59,883 bases of DNA from Marinitoga litoralis (lineage in GTDB: Bacteria > Thermotogota > Thermotogae > Petrotogales > Petrotogaceae): positions 1 to 59,883 of the forward strand of contig NZ_JAFBDI010000011.1 of assembly GCF_016908145.1 (NCBI RefSeq), written 5' to 3'. Each line of letters opens with the position of its first letter. Position 1 is the first letter of the stretch. The notes under the pieces are model-generated. The model was given only the letters and a program-made list of their open reading frames with translations. It searched no databases and was not told the DNA's origin. A program made the translations under genes and the position numbers. Of this stretch, positions 148-52,964 are shown in pieces.

Positions 148-3048
148 TCATTTAAATAAATTAAATAACGTTTTTTCTGGATCTATAGAATATATAACAA
201 GTTTGTTTTCTTCGGAAAAATGATTAAACCTTTTTGAGTATTTTTTTAGAGATTTAATATCAATGTCTAATTGTTTATTATATTCAATTATTAAACTATT
301 ATCATATATTTCAATTTTTTTAGCTCCCTTATAATAGGCTACAATTCTTAATTTTGTATAATTTAATAAATTTTCTAATTCTTCAGGGATCTTTCCGAAT
401 CTATCTTCAATATCTTTTTTAATAATATCAATATTTTCTACTTTATTTTCATTAGCAATCGTTCTATATATCCTCATTCTTTCAATAGGATTTTCTATAT
501 AGTTTTCTGGTATAATAATAGGTAATTGTATTCCTTTAATATCTAGATCAATTTTTTCTTTTATTTCACTTATTTCAAATTCTTTTGAATAATATTCAGC
601 AATTGTTCTATTTAATATTTCTTTATACATATGAAGACCTACATTATTAATATGTCCTTTTTGATCTACTCCTAATAAATCCCCAAAGCCTCTTATTTCT
701 AAATCTTGCATAGCAAGTTTTAAACCACTTCCTGGACCTGATATACTTTTTATAGCTTCTAATTTTTTCATTGTTTCTGCTTTGGGTTTGGATTTGTATA
801 AAAAGTATGCAAATGCTCTTTTATTACTTCGTCCAACTCTTCCTCTTAATTGATATAATTGAGATATTCCATAACGTTCAGCGTCATCAACTATTAATGT
901 ATTTGCATTTGGTATATCAATGCCATTTTCTACAATTGTTGTTGAAATTAAGACGTCAATCTCTCCATTATAGAATAATTTTATTATTTTAGATAAATAA
1001 CGTTTTGGCATTCTACCATGAACTGCAACGGTATTTACTTCAGGAACAATATTCCTTACTTGATCTTCTATTTCTTCTAAATCATTTATTCTATTATGTA
1101 CATATAATATTTGTCCTCCTCTAGCCTTCTCTCTTAAAATAGCAGTTCTTATTATTTTATCAGAGTATTTATGTACAAAAGTTTCTACAGGAATTCTTCC
1201 AAAAGGAGGAGTAGCTATAACAGACATATCTCTCAACCCAGTTAATGAAAAGTATAATGTTCTTGGAATTGGAGTTGCACTCATTGTAAGAACATTAATA
1301 CCATGAGATAATTCTTTTAGTTTTTCTTTTTGGAAAACACCAAATCTTTGTTCTTCATCAACAACTAATAATCCCAGTTTTTTAAATTTTATATTTTTAT
1401 TTAATAGAGCATGAGTTCCAATTATTACGTCCAATTTTCCGGAATTAATTTTTTCTATAATTATATCTTTCTCTTTTGGAGTTTTAAATCTATCTATTAA
1501 TTCTACAGTAATTCCTATTTCATCAAACCTATCCTTTACATTATCAAAATATTGTTGGGCTAAAATAGTTGTTGGCACTAATATAGCGGCTTGATACCCT
1601 GAACTAACAGTTCTAACAACAGCTCTAAGTGCAACTTCTGTTTTACCAAAGCCTGCATCTCCAGCAATTAATCTGTCCATAGGTTTTGTAGAAGATAAAT
1701 CATTTAACACTTCTTCTATAGCTTTTTCTTGATCAGGAGTTTCAATATATTCAAAAGTTTTCCTAAATTTCTCTTCAATTTCTTCATCACCATTCAAAGA
1801 AATGCCTGAAATATGTTCTCTTAAAGCATATAACTGAATTAATTCTTTTATTTTGCTTTGAATATTTTCTTTAACTTTTTTCTTTCTTTTTTGCCAAGAA
1901 GACGATCCAATTTTATCTAATTTTACTAAATCATAATCACCAACATATTTTGTTATTTTATCTATTCTATCTATGGGTAAAAAAACTTTTGCATTATTTT
2001 CATATTCAATTTTAATTAATTCTTTTTCACCAAAATGAGTTTTAACTTTTTCTAATCCTTTATATATACCTATACCATAATCTTCATGCACCACTAAATC
2101 ATTTATCTCTAAATCTTCCCATTCAAAAACGGGCAAATCTTCTACCTTTTTTTTAGTAATAACTTTTTTTACGAAGAAATTTTGTTTATTTACCTCTATG
2201 GATTTATATTTAATATTTTCAATACTTTTTCCACTATATAATTTATATAATTCTTTGTGAGTAGAAGAAAATATAAACTCTAAATTTTCTCTTTCCCTTT
2301 CTGAATAAGATTTTAAAGTTTCTTCCTCATTAATTACAAAAATATCATAATCGTCAATATAATCTAATATAGTATTTTTTTCATTATATAATATAGCAGG
2401 TAAAGTATCAAAAGAATTTATATCTATATTAAAATCTTTGATGTTATTGTTTTTTAAAAAAGTTTCTAAATTTACATATAAATTATTTTCGTATTTAAAC
2501 ATAAATTCTGACCCAGGAACAAAAACAAACTCATCGATGTTGTTAATACTTTTTTGTGATAATGAATCAAAAAAAGTTATTCTTGTTATTTCATCATCAA
2601 AAAGTTCTATTCTTATAGGATATTCATATATTGGTATATAAATATCTTTAACAAAACCTTTTTGTGAGAATTCAGATGTTTCATATACATTCCAAACCTT
2701 ATTATATCCATATAGAAAAGGATTAATATTAAAATCATTTGATAAAGTGAATTTAAAAACATTATCTTTAAAAATATTTTTTGGAATTGTATATCTAGTT
2801 AATGCATGGAATGTAGTAAAAATAATAGAATTATTATTTTTTATTAAATTGTATAATGTTTTAATTCTGTGGGCTTTTATTTTATTAGATACTTTTATTG
2901 ATTCAAAGGGAAAAACATCATAGTTGGGGAAATATAATATATTTTCATCAATTAAATTTTCTATATTCCAAGATTCTGGAAAAATTACAATTTTATGCTT
3001 TTTCTTAGATTTTTCTATTATGTTTAGAATTTCTTTAATAGCAATCAC
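148..3048 (-). CDS. mfd: Transcription-repair coupling factor Mfd
   Basis: Mfd is an ATP-driven translocase that removes RNA polymerase stalled at DNA lesions and recruits UvrA. Visible in order: a short degenerate UvrB-like N-terminal region, a CarD-like RNA polymerase interaction domain (DLVVHEDYGIGIYKG, near residue 325), helicase motifs AGDAGFGKTE (Walker A), VVDEEQRFGV (DEEQ), MSATPIPRTLY, VENGIDIPNANT and QLRGRVGRS, and a C-terminal D7-like region. At 966 aa it is shorter than the 1150 aa of enterobacterial Mfd; the N-terminal part is reduced, as in other Thermotogae. The only canonical start is the GTG at 3048, but that GTG is itself part of the best Shine-Dalgarno (GAGGTG), six bases before an in-frame ATT at 3039-3037. 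The true start may therefore be ATT, three codons later. The gene starts 7 bases after the upstream operon's terminator. Confidence 0.95.
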   Translation of the reverse strand: MIAIKEILNIIEKSKKKHKIVIFPESWNIENLIDENILYFPNYDVFPFESIKVSNKIKAHRIKTLYNLIKNNNSIIFTTFHALTRYTIPKNIFKDNVFKFTLSNDFNINPFLYGYNKVWNVYETSEFSQKGFVKDIYIPIYEYPIRIELFDDEITRITFFDSLSQKSINNIDEFVFVPGSEFMFKYENNLYVNLETFLKNNNIKDFNIDINSFDTLPAILYNEKNTILDYIDDYDIFVINEEETLKSYSERERENLEFIFSSTHKELYKLYSGKSIENIKYKSIEVNKQNFFVKKVITKKKVEDLPVFEWEDLEINDLVVHEDYGIGIYKGLEKVKTHFGEKELIKIEYENNAKVFLPIDRIDKITKYVGDYDLVKLDKIGSSSWQKRKKKVKENIQSKIKELIQLYALREHISGISLNGDEEIEEKFRKTFEYIETPDQEKAIEEVLNDLSSTKPMDRLIAGDAGFGKTEVALRAVVRTVSSGYQAAILVPTTILAQQYFDNVKDRFDEIGITVELIDRFKTPKEKDIIIEKINSGKLDVIIGTHALLNKNIKFKKLGLLVVDEEQRFGVFQKEKLKELSHGINVLTMSATPIPRTLYFSLTGLRDMSVIATPPFGRIPVETFVHKYSDKIIRTAILREKARGGQILYVHNRINDLEEIEDQVRNIVPEVNTVAVHGRMPKRYLSKIIKLFYNGEIDVLISTTIVENGIDIPNANTLIVDDAERYGISQLYQLRGRVGRSNKRAFAYFLYKSKPKAETMKKLEAIKSISGPGSGLKLAMQDLEIRGFGDLLGVDQKGHINNVGLHMYKEILNRTIAEYYSKEFEISEIKEKIDLDIKGIQLPIIIPENYIENPIERMRIYRTIANENKVENIDIIKKDIEDRFGKIPEELENLLNYTKLRIVAYYKGAKKIEIYDNSLIIEYNKQLDIDIKSLKKYSKRFNHFSEENKLVIYSIDPEKTLFNLFK

Positions 3049-16437: not shown

Positions 16438-17634
16438 TCAGTAAAATATTTTTAATAATCGTATCAATGAATAATAAGCAGCTTTTTCTCTTATTAAATT
16501 TCTGTTTCCGGAAAATATTTTTTTTTCTACTATTATTTTATCATAATTTTTATAAAAAAAAGCAAAAAATATAGTTCCCACAGGTTTTTCTTTTGTACCG
16601 CCGTCAGGTCCTGCGATTCCGCTTATAGCAATAGAAAAATTAGTGTTATATAATAAAGAACCATTTTTTGCCATTATTTTTACTGTTTCTTCACTTACAG
16701 CTCCATATTTTTCTAATATAGAAATATCGACATTAAGTAATATGTTTTTTATTTCATTTGAATAAGCTATTATACCGCCTTTATATATTTTGGAAGAACC
16801 AGGAATATCTGTAATTAATTTTCCAACGAGTCCGCCAGTACAAGATTCAAATGTTGATATGGATAAATTTTCTTTTGACAGCTTTTTTACTAGAAAATGT
16901 ATTGGATTATTAGGTATAATATAATCTTTGTATTTATCATTTATATATTCTACAATATTATTTATTTTATTTAGACTATCTTTAAAAATAATAGATGGAC
17001 CTATTGGAATTTCTATTTTTGTAGAATAATTTATATTTGATAATTTTTCTTCCAATCCTTCCATTAATTTGGATTCGGTTATATTATAAAATTGTATTTT
17101 TTTTATATTAGGTTTGTTTAAATTGAATTTATTAAAAATATAAATATTGTCTTCTATAATTTTTAATGCTTCATTTGGAGGTCCGGGTAATAATATATAA
17201 TGTTTATTATTTTTATTAATATACATACCTGGAGCGCTTCCATATTTATTTTCTAGAATAGTTGCACCTTCAATTACATAAGCTTGTTTTTTTATAATAT
17301 TATTCATGACAAAATTATATTTCCTATATCTATCTAAAATATTATTATAAATATTTTCGTTGAAAATTAATTTTTCATTCAAAAAATTAGCAACAGATTC
17401 TCTAGTAATATCATCTTGAGTTGAACCAAGTCCCCCGGTAATAATGATCATATCATTATTATTAGATAAAAATACTAAGGAAGATATTATATCTTCTTTA
17501 TTATCTCTAACATTTATATGTTTTGTAACTTCAAACCCTAAAGAATATAGAAAATTAGAAATTTCTTTAGCTGTTATGTTGTATATGCTGCCCTCAATTA
17601 ATTCGTCTCCTGTACTTAAAATAGCTACTTTAAT
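16438..17634 (-). CDS. cinA: CinA family protein with ATT start
   Basis: CinA/nicotinamide-nucleotide amidase family: N-terminal molybdopterin-binding-like domain and C-terminal amidase domain (STFESCTGGLVGKLITDIPG; SIAISGIAGPDGG). The first ATG in frame is at 17451 (MIIITGGLGST), in the middle of the N-terminal domain. Upstream the same frame stays open and encodes the missing family N-terminus (KVAILSTGDELIEG and on), but contains no ATG, GTG or TTG before the TGA that closes the frame. The reading starts best at the ATT at 17634-17632, five bases after GAGGTG, giving 398 aa, the normal CinA length. So an ATT start is proposed. It lies between glgX and cheA in the operon; C-terminal deamidation of NMN in pyridine nucleotide salvage is the known role of the family. 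Confidence 0.9.
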   Translation of the reverse strand: MKVAILSTGDELIEGSIYNITAKEISNFLYSLGFEVTKHINVRDNKEDIISSLVFLSNNNDMIIITGGLGSTQDDITRESVANFLNEKLIFNENIYNNILDRYRKYNFVMNNIIKKQAYVIEGATILENKYGSAPGMYINKNNKHYILLPGPPNEALKIIEDNIYIFNKFNLNKPNIKKIQFYNITESKLMEGLEEKLSNINYSTKIEIPIGPSIIFKDSLNKINNIVEYINDKYKDYIIPNNPIHFLVKKLSKENLSISTFESCTGGLVGKLITDIPGSSKIYKGGIIAYSNEIKNILLNVDISILEKYGAVSEETVKIMAKNGSLLYNTNFSIAISGIAGPDGGTKEKPVGTIFFAFFYKNYDKIIVEKKIFSGNRNLIREKAAYYSLIRLLKIFY

Positions 17635-17649
17635 ATTATCACCTCAAGA

Positions 17650-19806
17650 TCATTTTGAAATTAATACTATAATACTTTTTGATTTAACCTTATAATTATT
17701 ATAGACTCTTTGAGGGAAATCTAAAAAATCATTTGGACTTTCAAAAAAAGTATCTATAACTCTATACCAATTTCTTTCTTTAGGCAATTCAAAAATTAAA
17801 TCTTCTTCAAAAAAATTCATTGCTACATATATATCATTATCAGGAGAATAAGTTTGGTCTGCAAAATCTATTCCGCTTATCATAAATGCTAATGATTTTG
17901 AATTATATGAAAAATCAGGATTATTTAATTTTACTCCATGCCAAGTAATATCGGGAATACCATCACCTGTATAGTCTTTCCCTGTAAAAAAATGATCTCT
18001 TCTTAATGTATGATGTTTTTTTCTGAAATCAATTAATTTTTTTACAAATAAAAATATATCATTAAATTTGTTTAATCTATTCCAATCTACCCAGTTTTTA
18101 ATAGTGTCTTGGCAGTATGCATTATTATTTCCATGTTGAGTTCTGCAAAATTCATCTCCCATATAAATCATAGGGGTTCCTTGTGAAATCATTAGTATGG
18201 TAAAGAAATTTTTTATTTGTTTTTTTCGAATTTTTAAAATTTCTTCGTCATCCGTTTCTCCTTCTATACCATAATTAAAGCTATAATTATCATTTGCACC
18301 ATCATTATTGTTTTCTCCATTTTCTTCATTATGCTTTTCATTGTAAGAAACTAAGTCCCACATAGTAAAACCATCATGAGATGTAACGAAATTTACGCTA
18401 GCAATAGGGGATTTATTTCCATATAAATCTTCACTTCCAGCAATTCTACATGCAATTTCTCCAACTAATCCTTCGTCACCCTTTACAAATTTTCTAACAG
18501 CATCTCTAAATTTTCCATTCCACTCTGCCCAACCTTCTGGGAACGCTCCTAAAAAATATCCTCCCGCAGCATCCCATCCTTCTGCTATTAATTTAGAACC
18601 TGATATTATAGGGTCTTCGGCTATATCTTTTAATAATGATAAATCTCCTATCCAATTTCCTTTAGGATCTCTACCTAAAATAGAAGCTAAATCAAATCTA
18701 AAACCATCAACATGCATTTCTGTGACCCAATATCTTAAACTATCAATTATAAGATTTTTAACAACAGTGTGATTGCAATTGAAAGTGTTTCCAGTTCCTG
18801 AATAATTTTCATAATATCGTTTGTTTTCGCTTAATATATAATATATTGGATTATCAATACCCCTAAAAGATAATGTAGGACCTAATTCATTTCCTTCACC
18901 AGTATGATTATACACAACATCTAAAATAACTTCAAAGCCTTCTTTATGCAACGTTTTGACAAAATCTTTAAATAAATATACTTGTTCTCCTATTTTTAAA
19001 CCGTTTGAATAATTTCCAGTTACAGCAAAAAAAACCAAAGGATTATATCCCCAAACGTCTTTTAATTTCTCTCCAGTAACTGGGTTTGTGCGAATTATAG
19101 AATCCGGATTGAATTCAAAAATAGGCATTAATTCTATAGCGTTAACTCCTAAATCTTTTAAGTGATATAATTTTTCTAATAATCCTTCAAAAGTACCTCT
19201 GGAATTAACTTTTGAATTAGGGTTCATAGTAAATAATCTAACATTTAATTCATATATAATTAGATCTTTAAATGGGATTCTAGGATGTACATCATTTTCC
19301 CAATCGTATATAGAGTCATCAATTACAATTGATTTTGTTGGACTTATAGCAGAATCAATTTTAGAAAAAGATAAATCTAAAAGATCTGAGTGCTTGTCAT
19401 ATCCATATACAGCATCATCATCCCAATTATATGAACCAGATATAGCTTTTGCATAAGGGTCAGAAAGTAATTTATATTTATTAAATCTAAGACCGTTAAT
19501 TGGATCATATATACCGTCGACTCTCCAACCATAGAATTGACCATGTTTAATATTATGTATATAAATATGCCAAACATTTCCTGTTTTATTTTTTACAGGA
19601 TCTAATTCAAAAATATGTGAAGGTTTGTCATCATAAAAATTTTGATACAATTCTAGCCAAACTTTTTTTCCATTTTTTGTAAAAAGAGCAAAATTAACCC
19701 CTTCAGAGTCAACAGTAGCTCCTAATTTAGGATATCCCTTTTCAGTTTTTAATAATGTTTCGCTTCCAGGGTTTTCATAATAGAAAAAATTATTATTTTT
19801 ATTCAC
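17650..19806 (-). CDS. glgX: Glycogen debranching enzyme GlgX-type (GH13, CBM48)
   Basis: Hydrolyses alpha-1,6 branch points in glycogen or limit dextrins. N-terminal CBM48-like domain (GATVDSEGVNFALFTKNGKK), then the GH13 barrel: DVVYNHTGEG (region I), DGFRFDLAS with the nucleophile Asp (II), LIAEGWDAAG with the acid/base Glu (III), and NFVTSHDGFT (IV). 718 aa is normal for GlgX/isoamylase. It has a GTG start with only an A-rich upstream region; the start overlaps the end of the DUF3783 gene, so translation is probably coupled. No signal peptide, hence cytoplasmic. Confidence 0.92.
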   Translation of the reverse strand: MNKNNNFFYYENPGSETLLKTEKGYPKLGATVDSEGVNFALFTKNGKKVWLELYQNFYDDKPSHIFELDPVKNKTGNVWHIYIHNIKHGQFYGWRVDGIYDPINGLRFNKYKLLSDPYAKAISGSYNWDDDAVYGYDKHSDLLDLSFSKIDSAISPTKSIVIDDSIYDWENDVHPRIPFKDLIIYELNVRLFTMNPNSKVNSRGTFEGLLEKLYHLKDLGVNAIELMPIFEFNPDSIIRTNPVTGEKLKDVWGYNPLVFFAVTGNYSNGLKIGEQVYLFKDFVKTLHKEGFEVILDVVYNHTGEGNELGPTLSFRGIDNPIYYILSENKRYYENYSGTGNTFNCNHTVVKNLIIDSLRYWVTEMHVDGFRFDLASILGRDPKGNWIGDLSLLKDIAEDPIISGSKLIAEGWDAAGGYFLGAFPEGWAEWNGKFRDAVRKFVKGDEGLVGEIACRIAGSEDLYGNKSPIASVNFVTSHDGFTMWDLVSYNEKHNEENGENNNDGANDNYSFNYGIEGETDDEEILKIRKKQIKNFFTILMISQGTPMIYMGDEFCRTQHGNNNAYCQDTIKNWVDWNRLNKFNDIFLFVKKLIDFRKKHHTLRRDHFFTGKDYTGDGIPDITWHGVKLNNPDFSYNSKSLAFMISGIDFADQTYSPDNDIYVAMNFFEEDLIFELPKERNWYRVIDTFFESPNDFLDFPQRVYNNYKVKSKSIIVLISK

Positions 19807-48454: not shown

Positions 48455-48816
48455 TAAAGATTAATAACTTAATTTTAAGCTTCTGTTTTTAATTTCTTCT
48501 TTAATTGTTTTAATGAAGTCTTCAAGTTCTAAATCTTCAACGGTATTTCCTTCTCTAGTTCTTACATTGTATTTTTTAGTTTCAATTTCTTTTTCACCAA
48601 TGACAATCATATAAGGTATTTTTAACATTTGAGCATTTCTTATTTTATAACCTACCGTTGCGTTAGAATCATCTAATTTAACTCTTAATCCTTCAGAATC
48701 TAATTTTTCATATAATTCTTTTGCGGCATCAACATATTTATCAGAAACAGGAATAACAGCTACTTGTTCTGGAGATAACCATGTTGGGAATGCGCCAGCA
48801 AAGTTTTCTATTAATA
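48455..48816. repeat. Direct repeat copy A (thrS 3' end), 362 bp
   Basis: Identical to 53033-53394 except for three bases, no gaps, with a constant offset of 4578. It covers the last 118 codons of thrS plus six bases after the stop. Outside these limits the two sequences are unrelated. The pair flanks the lipoprotein gene. Confidence 0.97.
48461..48816 (-). pseudogene. thrS: Truncated thrS 3' fragment
   Basis: Encodes the last 118 residues of threonyl-tRNA synthetase (from the end of the catalytic domain, [11 protein letters not shown], through the anticodon-binding domain to the stop). Upstream of the break the frame runs a few codons (LLL, SYK...) to a TAA with no start codon, so it cannot be translated on its own. 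It differs from the full gene by three synonymous third-position changes (AAC/AAT, ACG/ACA, GCC/GCA), i.e. the protein sequence is unchanged. Confidence 0.95.
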
Positions 48817-48912
48817 ATAATGAATATTTGTGATAATAAGTAATTTAATTTTTTAGAATGGTAAATATTCTATTAATTAAATGTTATTTTTTATAATAAA
48901 AAGCTGTTTTTA

Positions 48913-48956: not shown

Positions 48957-51900
48957 ATGTTTTATAAATTTCATAAGAAAACTATCTTTTATATTTTATT
49001 CTTACTTTTATTTGTATTTAATTCATGTATGAGGTTTAATAATCCTCCTGTAAAACCTTATGATTTGAAGCCTATTGATGGTAAAAAAGATGTTTTTATT
49101 TATTTAACTTTAGAATGGAATAGTTATGATAAAGATGGTGACGATATATATTATTCTATTTATCTTGGTGAAAATAAAGATAATTTAAAACTATTAAAGA
49201 GCAATATTAAAGATAATAAATATTATGTTGGACCTTTAGACTATAGTAAAAAATATTATTGGAAAATTAAAGCAGTAGATTCTAAAGGTGGATATTCATA
49301 TAGTGATATACAAAGTTTTATTACTATAAATAATAGTGCTCCAAGAATAGAAAATATATATATTGATTCACTTATTAATGTAGAATTAAATCCACAAATT
49401 AGTTGGGAAGCAACAGATAATGAAGGAGATCAAATTTTATATAATATATATTTAAATAATGAATTAAAGGTGGAAAATTATGAAAAAACAACATATAAAT
49501 TAATTAATTTAAATCCAGGAAAAACGTATAAGTTAAAAATAGAAGCTGTAGATGATTATGGTGGGAAAAGTGATAAAATCATAGAATTTAAGACAACAGA
49601 GGCCCCGAAAATAATATATATGAGTCCTAGAAATGATACAATAACTTTAAATGGGGAAATGAAATTAAGCTGGGAAGCAACTGATTTTAATAACGATGAA
49701 ATATTATACGATGTTTATATTGAAAAAATAGACATTGATGGAGAAAAAGTAAATCCATCTAGAAAAATATTTGAAAACATTAAAGAGAATGAAGTTAAAA
49801 TATTTTTAAATGAAGTAGGGAAATATTATTGGAAAGTAATAGTTAAAGATGAAAGAGGAGCAATAAATGAATCTGAAGTTAGAAATTTTGTATATAAAAA
49901 AAATAATATTCCTGAAGTAAATATTATTTATCCCGAAGATAATTCTGTTCTAAATAATAAAAATGTTTCTTTAGCCTGGGAAGGATTTGATAAAGATGGA
50001 GATAAATTAATTTATAATGTTTACCTAGATAAAAATATTATTCCAACAACTATAATTGCTACTAAAATAAATAATAATATTTTAGAATTTTCTCTTAAAG
50101 AAACTGGAAAATATTATTGGAGAGTAGAAGTTATTGATGAAAATAAAGAAAAATCATTTAGTAATATATATAAATTTATTTTTAATAACATTCCAACAGA
50201 AATAGAATTAAAAGAACCAAAAGAAGGTGAATATATAACAGGTACAAAGGTAAAACTTAGTTGGGAAGCGACGGATGTAGATGGAGATAAATTAATGTAC
50301 GACATATACTTTGGGAAAGAACCATTTCCATCATTATATAAAGAAAATTATGAAGGTAATTATATATACATAGAAAACATAGAATCAAACAAAACATATT
50401 ATTGGAAGATAATAGCAAAAGACGGGAAAGGCGGAAAGTTAGAAAGTTCTATAATGAGTTTTAAAACTAACACAGCGCCAACAGAAATAGAATTAAAAGA
50501 ACCAAAAGAAGGTGAATATATAACAGGTACAAAGGTAAAACTTAGTTGGGAAGCGACGGATGTAGATGGAGATAAATTAATGTACGACATATACTTTGGG
50601 AAAGAACCATTTCCATCATTATATAAAGAAAATTATGAAGGTAATTATATATACATAGAAAACATAGAATCAAACAAAACATATTATTGGAAGATAATAG
50701 CAAAAGATGGAAAAGGTGAAAAGTTAGAAAGTTCTATAATGATTTTTAAAACTAACACAGCGCCAACAGAAATAGAATTAAAAGAACCAAAAGAAGGTGA
50801 ATATATAACAGATACAAAGGTGAAGCTTAGTTGGGAAGCGACGGATGTAGATGGAGATAAATTAATGTACGACATATGCTTTGGGAAAGAACCAAATCCT
50901 GCTCTATATAAAAAGGATTATGAAAGTAATTATATATACATAGAAAACATAGAATCAAACAAAACATATTATTGGAAGATAATAGCAAAAGATGGAAAAG
51001 GTGGAAAACTAGAAAGTTCTATAATGAGTTTTAATACAAATACAGCACCGACAAATATTTACACACAATTTGATGCTACTAGAATCACTTTAGAGCCCAC
51101 CATAATAATTAATTGGAGTGCAATAGATATAGATGGAGACAAAATAAAATATGATGTATATTTTGGCGAAAGTGAAATACCACAATTATATTTAGAAAAT
51201 ATTGAATTTGATAATTTGGAATTGTCAAATTTGAAAATAAAAACCACATATTATTGGAAAATTGTAGCGAAAGATGGAAAAGGCGGAATAAGTGAAGGAC
51301 CTATTTGGAGCTTTACTACAAACAGCAAACCAGAAATAATTAATGTCTATCCAAAAGATAATAGTTTTGTTCAAGGAAACAGACCTGAATATCTATGGGG
51401 GGATCTTCCTAAAACTTCAGTAAAATTAACTTGGGAGGCAACGGATATAGATAATGATGAAATTTATTATGATGTTTATTTTAATGGAGAATTATATAAA
51501 GAAAATATTAAAGATAACTATATAATTCTCGATGAATTATCACATAATATAGAATATAATTGGAAGTTAATTGTAAAGGATCAATATGGTGCAATTACAG
51601 AATCATCTATCCAAAAGTTTGTTATAAATACACCACCAATGCTTGGTCAAATCTATCCAAAAAATAATGACATCTTATATCAAAATGAAATTACATTATA
51701 TTATTATGCATATGACTCAGATAACTACAATTCTTATATGAAATATTATATATATTTTAGTGAAGATTCTTCTCCAAATATATACAAAGAAGACAATAAA
51801 GGTGGGAATATTAAAATATCAAATTTAAAAGAAAATACTGATTATTATTATAGAGTTATTGTTGAAGATGATAGAGGTGGAAAGGATGATACTGGTATAA

Positions 51901-52964
51901 TGAAAATAAAAATTGGAGAAAATAAGATAAAAAATAAAATATCAGTTTCCTACCAAATATCTTCAAAAGTTATTGTGACTGATTCAAATATTTATTTTTC
52001 ATCAAATACAAATAATAGCAATATTTTTTATTCACTAGATAATTTTGGTAATTTTAAATGGTCTAAATATCTTAATGGATACGTGTATGATATGTTGATA
52101 GATGATACAAATGATAAGATATTTGTATATACATATGATTATTCATCTGGAGGAAAAATATATGCTTTATCTACTCTTGATGGAAAAATTTCATGGGAAT
52201 ATTCTTTAGGAGAAAGTGGATATTATTCATCAAAGAAATTAAAATTGAATAAAAATGATTCTATTTTATATATTAGTGGTAGGTATTCAATATATGCTTT
52301 AGATATTTCTAATGGAACAAAAAAATGGAGTTTTAAAACATCAAGTGAAATAAGAAATGAATTTTATATCGACGAAATAAATGATTTATTAATATTTACA
52401 ACATCATATTATCTATATGCATTAAATTTATCAGACGGAAGTGCTGTATGGAATATATATACTGGCAGTTCAAATAGTATTAATGGAATATTTGTTGAAA
52501 ATTCCAAAATTTATTATACTATAGGAAAATATTTGTATATTGCTGATTCGGCAAATGGGAATATTCTTTTACAAAAGGACATAAATTCATATGGCGGTAA
52601 AATGATTATTATTGACGATTACATATATGTATCAGGATATAGTGATCAAAACAGTTGTTCATCTAGAAAGTTATTAATACTAAATAAAGAAGGAGAAAAA
52701 ATAAATGAAACTTCTTGGATTTCAACTTCGGAGCCTATTTATGTATCAGAAGATTTATTATTAATAAATGGATATGACTCAAATACATTTTATTATGAAA
52801 TGGAAGGAATGGGATATATTTATGCAATAACTAAAGAAGGAAATATTATATGGAAAATTTTTACCGGGAATTATATATGTTTTGGAAATAATACTTTAAA
52901 CAATTATCTGAATAATTACTATTTTATTGACGGAAAAGATATATATATTTTAGATTTTCAATAA
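48957..52964 (+). CDS. Large surface lipoprotein with ten Ig/FnIII-like repeats and a PQQ-like beta-propeller
   Basis: 1335 aa. N-terminal hydrophobic segment ending in a lipobox-like FNSC (Cys24). Then about ten modules of roughly 95 residues, each with a variant of SWEATDxDGDxxxYDxYxG and YYWKIxAKDxxG, which looks like a fibronectin III or Ig-like fold; three consecutive modules (about residues 413-697) are nearly identical. From about residue 1005 the protein changes to short repeats with Trp (GTKKWSFKTS; GSAVWNIYTG; NIIWKIFTG) typical of PQQ-type beta-propellers. It is probably displayed on the outer envelope and may bind sugar, protein or neighbouring cells; no enzyme motif seen. RBS AAGGGGGT. 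The gene lies alone between two thrS 3' ends. Confidence 0.85.
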   Translation: MFYKFHKKTIFYILFLLLFVFNSCMRFNNPPVKPYDLKPIDGKKDVFIYLTLEWNSYDKDGDDIYYSIYLGENKDNLKLLKSNIKDNKYYVGPLDYSKKYYWKIKAVDSKGGYSYSDIQSFITINNSAPRIENIYIDSLINVELNPQISWEATDNEGDQILYNIYLNNELKVENYEKTTYKLINLNPGKTYKLKIEAVDDYGGKSDKIIEFKTTEAPKIIYMSPRNDTITLNGEMKLSWEATDFNNDEILYDVYIEKIDIDGEKVNPSRKIFENIKENEVKIFLNEVGKYYWKVIVKDERGAINESEVRNFVYKKNNIPEVNIIYPEDNSVLNNKNVSLAWEGFDKDGDKLIYNVYLDKNIIPTTIIATKINNNILEFSLKETGKYYWRVEVIDENKEKSFSNIYKFIFNNIPTEIELKEPKEGEYITGTKVKLSWEATDVDGDKLMYDIYFGKEPFPSLYKENYEGNYIYIENIESNKTYYWKIIAKDGKGGKLESSIMSFKTNTAPTEIELKEPKEGEYITGTKVKLSWEATDVDGDKLMYDIYFGKEPFPSLYKENYEGNYIYIENIESNKTYYWKIIAKDGKGEKLESSIMIFKTNTAPTEIELKEPKEGEYITDTKVKLSWEATDVDGDKLMYDICFGKEPNPALYKKDYESNYIYIENIESNKTYYWKIIAKDGKGGKLESSIMSFNTNTAPTNIYTQFDATRITLEPTIIINWSAIDIDGDKIKYDVYFGESEIPQLYLENIEFDNLELSNLKIKTTYYWKIVAKDGKGGISEGPIWSFTTNSKPEIINVYPKDNSFVQGNRPEYLWGDLPKTSVKLTWEATDIDNDEIYYDVYFNGELYKENIKDNYIILDELSHNIEYNWKLIVKDQYGAITESSIQKFVINTPPMLGQIYPKNNDILYQNEITLYYYAYDSDNYNSYMKYYIYFSEDSSPNIYKEDNKGGNIKISNLKENTDYYYRVIVEDDRGGKDDTGIMKIKIGENKIKNKISVSYQISSKVIVTDSNIYFSSNTNNSNIFYSLDNFGNFKWSKYLNGYVYDMLIDDTNDKIFVYTYDYSSGGKIYALSTLDGKISWEYSLGESGYYSSKKLKLNKNDSILYISGRYSIYALDISNGTKKWSFKTSSEIRNEFYIDEINDLLIFTTSYYLYALNLSDGSAVWNIYTGSSNSINGIFVENSKIYYTIGKYLYIADSANGNILLQKDINSYGGKMIIIDDYIYVSGYSDQNSCSSRKLLILNKEGEKINETSWISTSEPIYVSEDLLLINGYDSNTFYYEMEGMGYIYAITKEGNIIWKIFTGNYICFGNNTLNNYLNNYYFIDGKDIYILDFQ
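50193..51047 (+). repeat. Three tandem 285-bp repeats inside the lipoprotein gene
   Basis: Units begin at 50193, 50478 and 50763, each 285 bp (95 codons). Units 1 and 2 are identical over the first 200 or more bases and differ only near the end (GGCGGA versus GGTGAA; AGT versus ATT); unit 3 has diverged in its middle (PSLYKENYEGN to PALYKKDYESN). The period equals one Ig-like module, so the array can grow or shrink by recombination without loss of frame. Confidence 0.95.

Follow-up and report, generated by a model that had tools for sequence, protein, structure and literature searches.

The cinA gene of Marinitoga litoralis very probably begins with AUU. In the window (the whole stretch of 59,883 nucleotides that was analysed), the codon lies at positions 17634-17632 of the minus strand, and we hold with high confidence that cinA would be translated from it by the ordinary initiator tRNA, held in place by a Shine-Dalgarno (SD) sequence, in a manner that is predicted to be weak and probably sensitive to IF3. 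Support for the start site is strong, and its regulation we infer from infC and pcnB of Escherichia coli and from cvfC1 and ccpN of Staphylococcus aureus. The relevant features are as follows:

16438..17634, minus strand: coding sequence of cinA, from ATT to a TGA stop (398 aa; from translation, with matches to PF00994, PF02464 and TIGR00200 and PDB homologues)
17632..17634, minus strand: predicted ATT (AUU) start codon of cinA (from conservation in the genus and alignment with TTG starts of sister genera)
17638..17645, minus strand: Shine-Dalgarno sequence GAGGTGAT of cinA (8 contiguous base pairs to the 16S tail; a gap of 3 nt separates it from the ATT)
17644..17646, minus strand: in-frame TGA that opens the cinA frame
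17449..17451, minus strand: first in-frame ATG of cinA (codon 62), rejected as start
17650..19806, minus strand: glgX-like glycogen debranching enzyme gene, upstream of cinA (stop TGA at 17652-17650)

The reading frame of cinA and its first 61 codons

The cinA product is made of an N-terminal MoCF-like domain and a C-terminal nicotinamide-nucleotide amidase domain. From the opening TGA, the frame reads GGT GAT AAT ATT AAA GTA GCT ATT TTA AGT ACA GGA GAC GAA, and the canonical codons that follow the ATT are ATG at codon 62 (17451), TTG at codon 85 and ATG at codon 110. A sequence-only reading of this DNA had stated that ATG, GTG and TTG are absent between the opening TGA and 17451, and that an ATT stands behind a Shine-Dalgarno sequence. 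Reading of the frame bears out both statements, the SD being GAGGTGAT and the ATT that at 17634-17632. Two further claims, namely that a start at 17451 would lose 61 conserved N-terminal residues and that the frame upstream of it encodes the N-terminus of the family, agree with the profile searches and with the codon comparison described below.

The ATT-started protein scores 245.0 against TIGR00200, while a protein started at the ATG (17451) scores 198.4. The curated NCBIfam cut-off is 243.15, and only the ATT-started form passes it. Pfam scores are also above cut-off (95.2 for PF00994 and 160.2 for PF02464), and position 1 of the PF00994 profile aligns at CinA residue 4, which places the start of the MoCF-like domain at the N-terminus of the protein. 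The solved CinA chains 6mr3 and 4ct8 (PDB) align from their residues 2 and 5, respectively. When the 61 codons that precede the ATG were compared with those of the nearest relative (G006), 5, 2 and 26 differences were found at first, second and third codon positions, respectively. Such a bias towards the third position is the mark of a translated frame, and indicates that the codons before the first ATG are under protein-level selection.

Translation from the ATG at 17451, yielding a CinA protein without its first 61 residues, is therefore very improbable. This ATG is the first canonical codon and the default pick of an automatic gene finder; however, its use would cost the MoCF-like domain its conserved first part, the resulting protein misses the TIGR00200 cut-off, the frame upstream is under coding selection, and the ATG is not conserved, as the next canonical codons of relatives are found at 6, 32, 42, 101 or 139.

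Conservation of the start position and its upstream neighbourhood

The cinA gene, whole or partial, was present in all 60 relatives searched. The genus set comprised seven genomes, our own and six sister species, and the start position is occupied by ATT in six of them and by ATA in the remaining one (five and one, respectively, among the sister genomes). ATG, GTG or TTG was found there in none of the seven. The start codon of sister species had been proposed as a check by the sequence-only reading, which considered an ATG revealed by resequencing as a refutation. With ATT or ATA in all six sister genomes and ATG in none, that refutation is removed, and initiation at 17451 becomes very unlikely. 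An error of sequencing or assembly that conceals a true ATG is hardly conceivable: ATG is one base change away and our assembly is an 87-contig draft, but ATG is missing at this place in every one of the seven genomes, including two that are assembled into one or two contigs.

Where other family genera have a full-length cinA, its start is mostly a TTG at or beside the aligned place, often after a GGAGTGA-type SD. One other family genus (G007) has ATG, and order-level relatives have either TTG or ATG. As TTG is found in most family genera and AUU or AUA in the genus, weak starts are common for cinA in the family and turned into AUU or AUA here. Internal Ile codons of the cinA alignment interchange freely among ATT, ATA and ATC. 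Among 15 columns with invariant Ile, a single one shows ATT in six or more of the seven genomes and none shows it in all seven; all-ATT columns number 0 of 15 in a PhoU-like gene and 1 of 10 in infC. The cinA start column is more fixed as ATT than the internal Ile columns, in a comparison that involves few columns per gene and related genomes.

The SD duplex of cinA amounts to -12.9 kcal/mol in our genome, stronger than 75% of ATG starts. Across genomes it ranges from -10.4 to -13.1 kcal/mol, which corresponds to percentiles 38 to 79 of ATG starts, with four relatives at the 38th to 42nd percentile. The strength of this SD is only moderate, that is, ordinary. Five genus genomes have GGAGTGAT or GGAGTGGT as their SD, and its GTG falls in the frame of cinA, three codons before the ATT or ATA (pattern GGA GTG RTW NAT ATT/ATA); two of these five carry an additional ATG two codons further upstream. 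Use of AUU is thus not forced in those five genomes. In our genome and in G006, the SD GAGGTGAT shifts the GTG out of frame with the ATT still present, and no in-frame ATG, GTG or TTG exists from the opening stop to the cinA start.

These observations admit another explanation: the GTG might be the start throughout the genus, and AUU a recent accident in our genome and G006. The in-frame GTG of five genomes and the ATG of two of them speak in its favour. This explanation seems, however, improbable, as the GTG always lies within the SD GGAGTGAT and is itself preceded by no SD, and the TTG of sister genera aligns with the ATT and not with the GTG. The higher fixation of ATT relative to internal Ile codons is also against it, as are infC (in several genomes) and folK, which do without a nearby upstream in-frame canonical codon.

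The gene order glgX-cinA-cheA is common to all seven genus genomes. In five relatives, the spacer between glgX and cinA contains TTTTGTGGTAAAATATA, an extended -10-like promoter block located about 20-45 bases upstream of cinA, and a similar form is found upstream of cinA in sister genera. This promoter-like spacer is gone in our genome and in G006. Its loss leaves cinA 15 bases behind the glgX stop (counted to the ATT in our genome), probably relying on glgX transcription, and the two genes are probably co-transcribed in these two genomes. In our genome they also share a frame, with TGA TCT TGA between them, which invites the idea of a single GlgX-CinA polypeptide made by readthrough of two TGA codons. 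Such an arrangement is exceedingly improbable, as the frame relation is off by one base in G006 and five relatives have the promoter-like spacer between the genes. A four-codon open reading frame across the glgX stop (ATG ATC TTG AGG TGA) was considered as a leader peptide and rejected: G006 keeps neither its frame nor its sequence.

A separate observation in the window concerns thrS. An orphan 127-residue C-terminal piece that looks like a threonyl-tRNA synthetase anticodon-binding domain is found at 48461-48844 (minus strand), and is 97% identical to the C-terminus of a complete thrS nearby (53042 upward, minus strand). Between them lies one 1335-residue repeat-protein open reading frame (48957-52964, plus strand). 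The arrangement looks as if a segment had been inserted at the thrS 3' end together with a replacement 3' end.

Other genes with candidate AUU and AUA starts

At least five or six genes of the genus, cinA among them, have a predicted AUU or AUA start. A survey was carried out on 781 kb of the genome G003 and 454 kb of our own, with about 1,035 open reading frames, by selecting coding frames that lack a canonical start codon close to where coding begins and then those with an SD followed by ATT or ATA. Hits dropped were a transposase fragment, weak-coding frames without SD plus ATT, and cases in which an ATG stood within three codons of the ATT. The affected share of the sampled genes is up to about 1%, a rough estimate from a sample.

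The gene infC served as internal positive control. It had been cited in the sequence-only reading as the parallel for an ATT start, and the parallel holds within the genus itself: infC begins with ATT in all seven genomes and, in several of them, has no canonical in-frame codon upstream near the start position. A PhoU-like/DUF47 gene has ATT in the seven genomes, against ATG in G007 and G011, two sister genera; its SD contains an in-frame GTG, as in five of the cinA cases. An unnamed small membrane-protein gene near infC, without Pfam match, has ATT in 7/7 genomes, and in our genome no ATG, GTG or TTG occurs in frame over its length. The folK gene starts with ATA in four and with ATT in one of five genus genomes. 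This codon comes right after an in-frame TAA, which leaves no room for a canonical start close to the N-terminus of the family. Variable cases are a HAD hydrolase gene (ATT in four genomes, ATG in two) and an MBL-fold gene (ATT in our genome only, ATG in four others). At the PhoU-like, HAD, MBL and membrane-protein sites, SD strength reaches percentiles 96 to 100 of ATG starts.

A further candidate lies in the window:

3037..3039, minus strand: ATT, probably the start codon of mfd and the second such start of the window (behind the SD GTAGAGGTGATTGCT; the alternative is a GTG inside the SD)

The start of mfd is ATT or ATA in some genus genomes, and the assignment is ambiguous because of the GTG within the SD. 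The hairpin CGGACTTATGTCCG, which has a T run and resembles a terminator, lies immediately upstream of this site (about 40 bases) and is kept in the genus. Single candidate AUA, AUU or CUG starts were seen in the sister genera G017, G009 and G007 (a scpA-like gene in G017, a mutS2-like gene and an S4-domain protein).

Gene finders as a rule take only ATG, GTG and TTG as starts. Because of this limit, annotations of the genus are likely to mis-start or truncate CinA, FolK, the PhoU-like protein and other products.

One may ask whether the AUU start of cinA, even if real, has any regulatory meaning. ATG or TTG could have drifted to ATT or ATA in a genus of 26-27% G+C with good SDs, a view that opposes only the functional half of our explanation and to which we give somewhat less than an even chance. 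In agreement with drift, several unrelated functions are affected, low G+C content is favourable, and the MBL-fold gene (ATT in a single genome) and the HAD gene (mixed ATT and ATG) behave as drift would have it. On the other side, cinA, infC, the PhoU-like gene and the membrane-protein gene keep their state in seven of seven species with ATG one mutation away, and most family relatives likewise have cinA on a weak start (TTG). A rather doubtful speculation is that infC, cinA, folK, the PhoU-like, membrane-protein and HAD genes, and perhaps mfd, might form an IF3-responsive translational regulon, with translation of all its members following the supply of IF3. The mixture of genes fixed in seven species and genes that vary with ATG fits a blend of an IF3 set and drift.

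Initiation at cinA and comparison with known systems

An unusual decoding apparatus was sought in the initiator tRNA, the 16S tail and the IF3 sequence, and none was seen. In a genus member, the initiator tRNA has a normal GGG/CCC anticodon stem and a CAU anticodon, and the 16S tail is normal (GGATCACCTCCTTTCT); IF3 of the genus is of full length and ordinary-looking sequence. IF3 of the genus reads VMFLGRD, with Leu before GR; a basic residue is known at this place from other bacteria, and the difference might relax the discrimination of start codons. No infC gene was found in the sampled stretches of other genera. Since initiator tRNA, 16S tail and IF3 are normal, the simplest account would be ordinary near-cognate initiation stabilised by the SD. 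The mRNA SD GAGGUGAU would pair with the 16S tail and set the AUU of cinA in the P site, and the ordinary initiator tRNA (CAU) would start on it despite a mismatch at the third position. Such initiation would be weak and presumably IF3-sensitive, so that the level of CinA would be kept low. The low dosage of CinA may be the selected benefit.

The debate on selection of weak starts usually rests on infC and pcnB alone. The genus offers a natural test of whether weak starts have been favoured because they bring low dosage and control by IF3, or are simply tolerated, and the variable genes, with ATT in some species and ATG in others, provide the comparison for such a test. Our literature searches found no paper on the start codons of cinA or of Marinitoga.

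The AUU start of infC, which encodes IF3, is known in E. coli and many other bacteria, and permits autoregulation by its own product. Like infC, cinA has AUU after a good SD, conserved across species. Unlike cinA, the infC start serves autoregulation by IF3. No role in initiation is known for CinA; hence, any effect of IF3 on cinA would be control in trans.

In E. coli, the expression of pcnB is limited by its AUU start (Binns and Masters 2002, cited in PMC13009471). Like cinA, pcnB is a chromosomal gene other than infC with a natural AUU start; it is, however, a single gene, while here several genes are concerned, AUA starts are included and the genus belongs to another phylum. In S. aureus, AUU and AUA starts have been described by ribosome profiling and reporters for cvfC1 (AUU) and for ccpN, citZ and infC (AUA), with extended SDs and, in poor medium, about 10% of the expression obtained from AUG (PMC13009471). 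The S. aureus set and the genus set have in common the AUU and AUA codons, conservation of some of them among relatives, and extended SD complementarity near the start. The PhoU-like, HAD, MBL and membrane-protein sites are those that resemble the conserved S. aureus starts with extended SDs. In contrast, the genes and the phylum are other ones here, and the predicted AUU start of cinA has an ordinary SD.

In Streptomyces, the non-canonical GTC start of sigR is repressed by IF3, an effect that was measured (PMC5472188). The sigR gene would resemble cinA in that a weak non-canonical start holds down protein dosage; however, the codon is different, and the IF3 effect measured for sigR is predicted for cinA. 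On the precedents of S. aureus and sigR, low dosage and IF3 sensitivity would be expected for cinA. The gene shows the features of a natural AUU-started gene: no usable canonical start (in our genome and G006), a conserved codon and a properly spaced SD. It may thus be added to the known AUU-started genes, and its interest is raised by the number of AUU and AUA genes kept in one genus.
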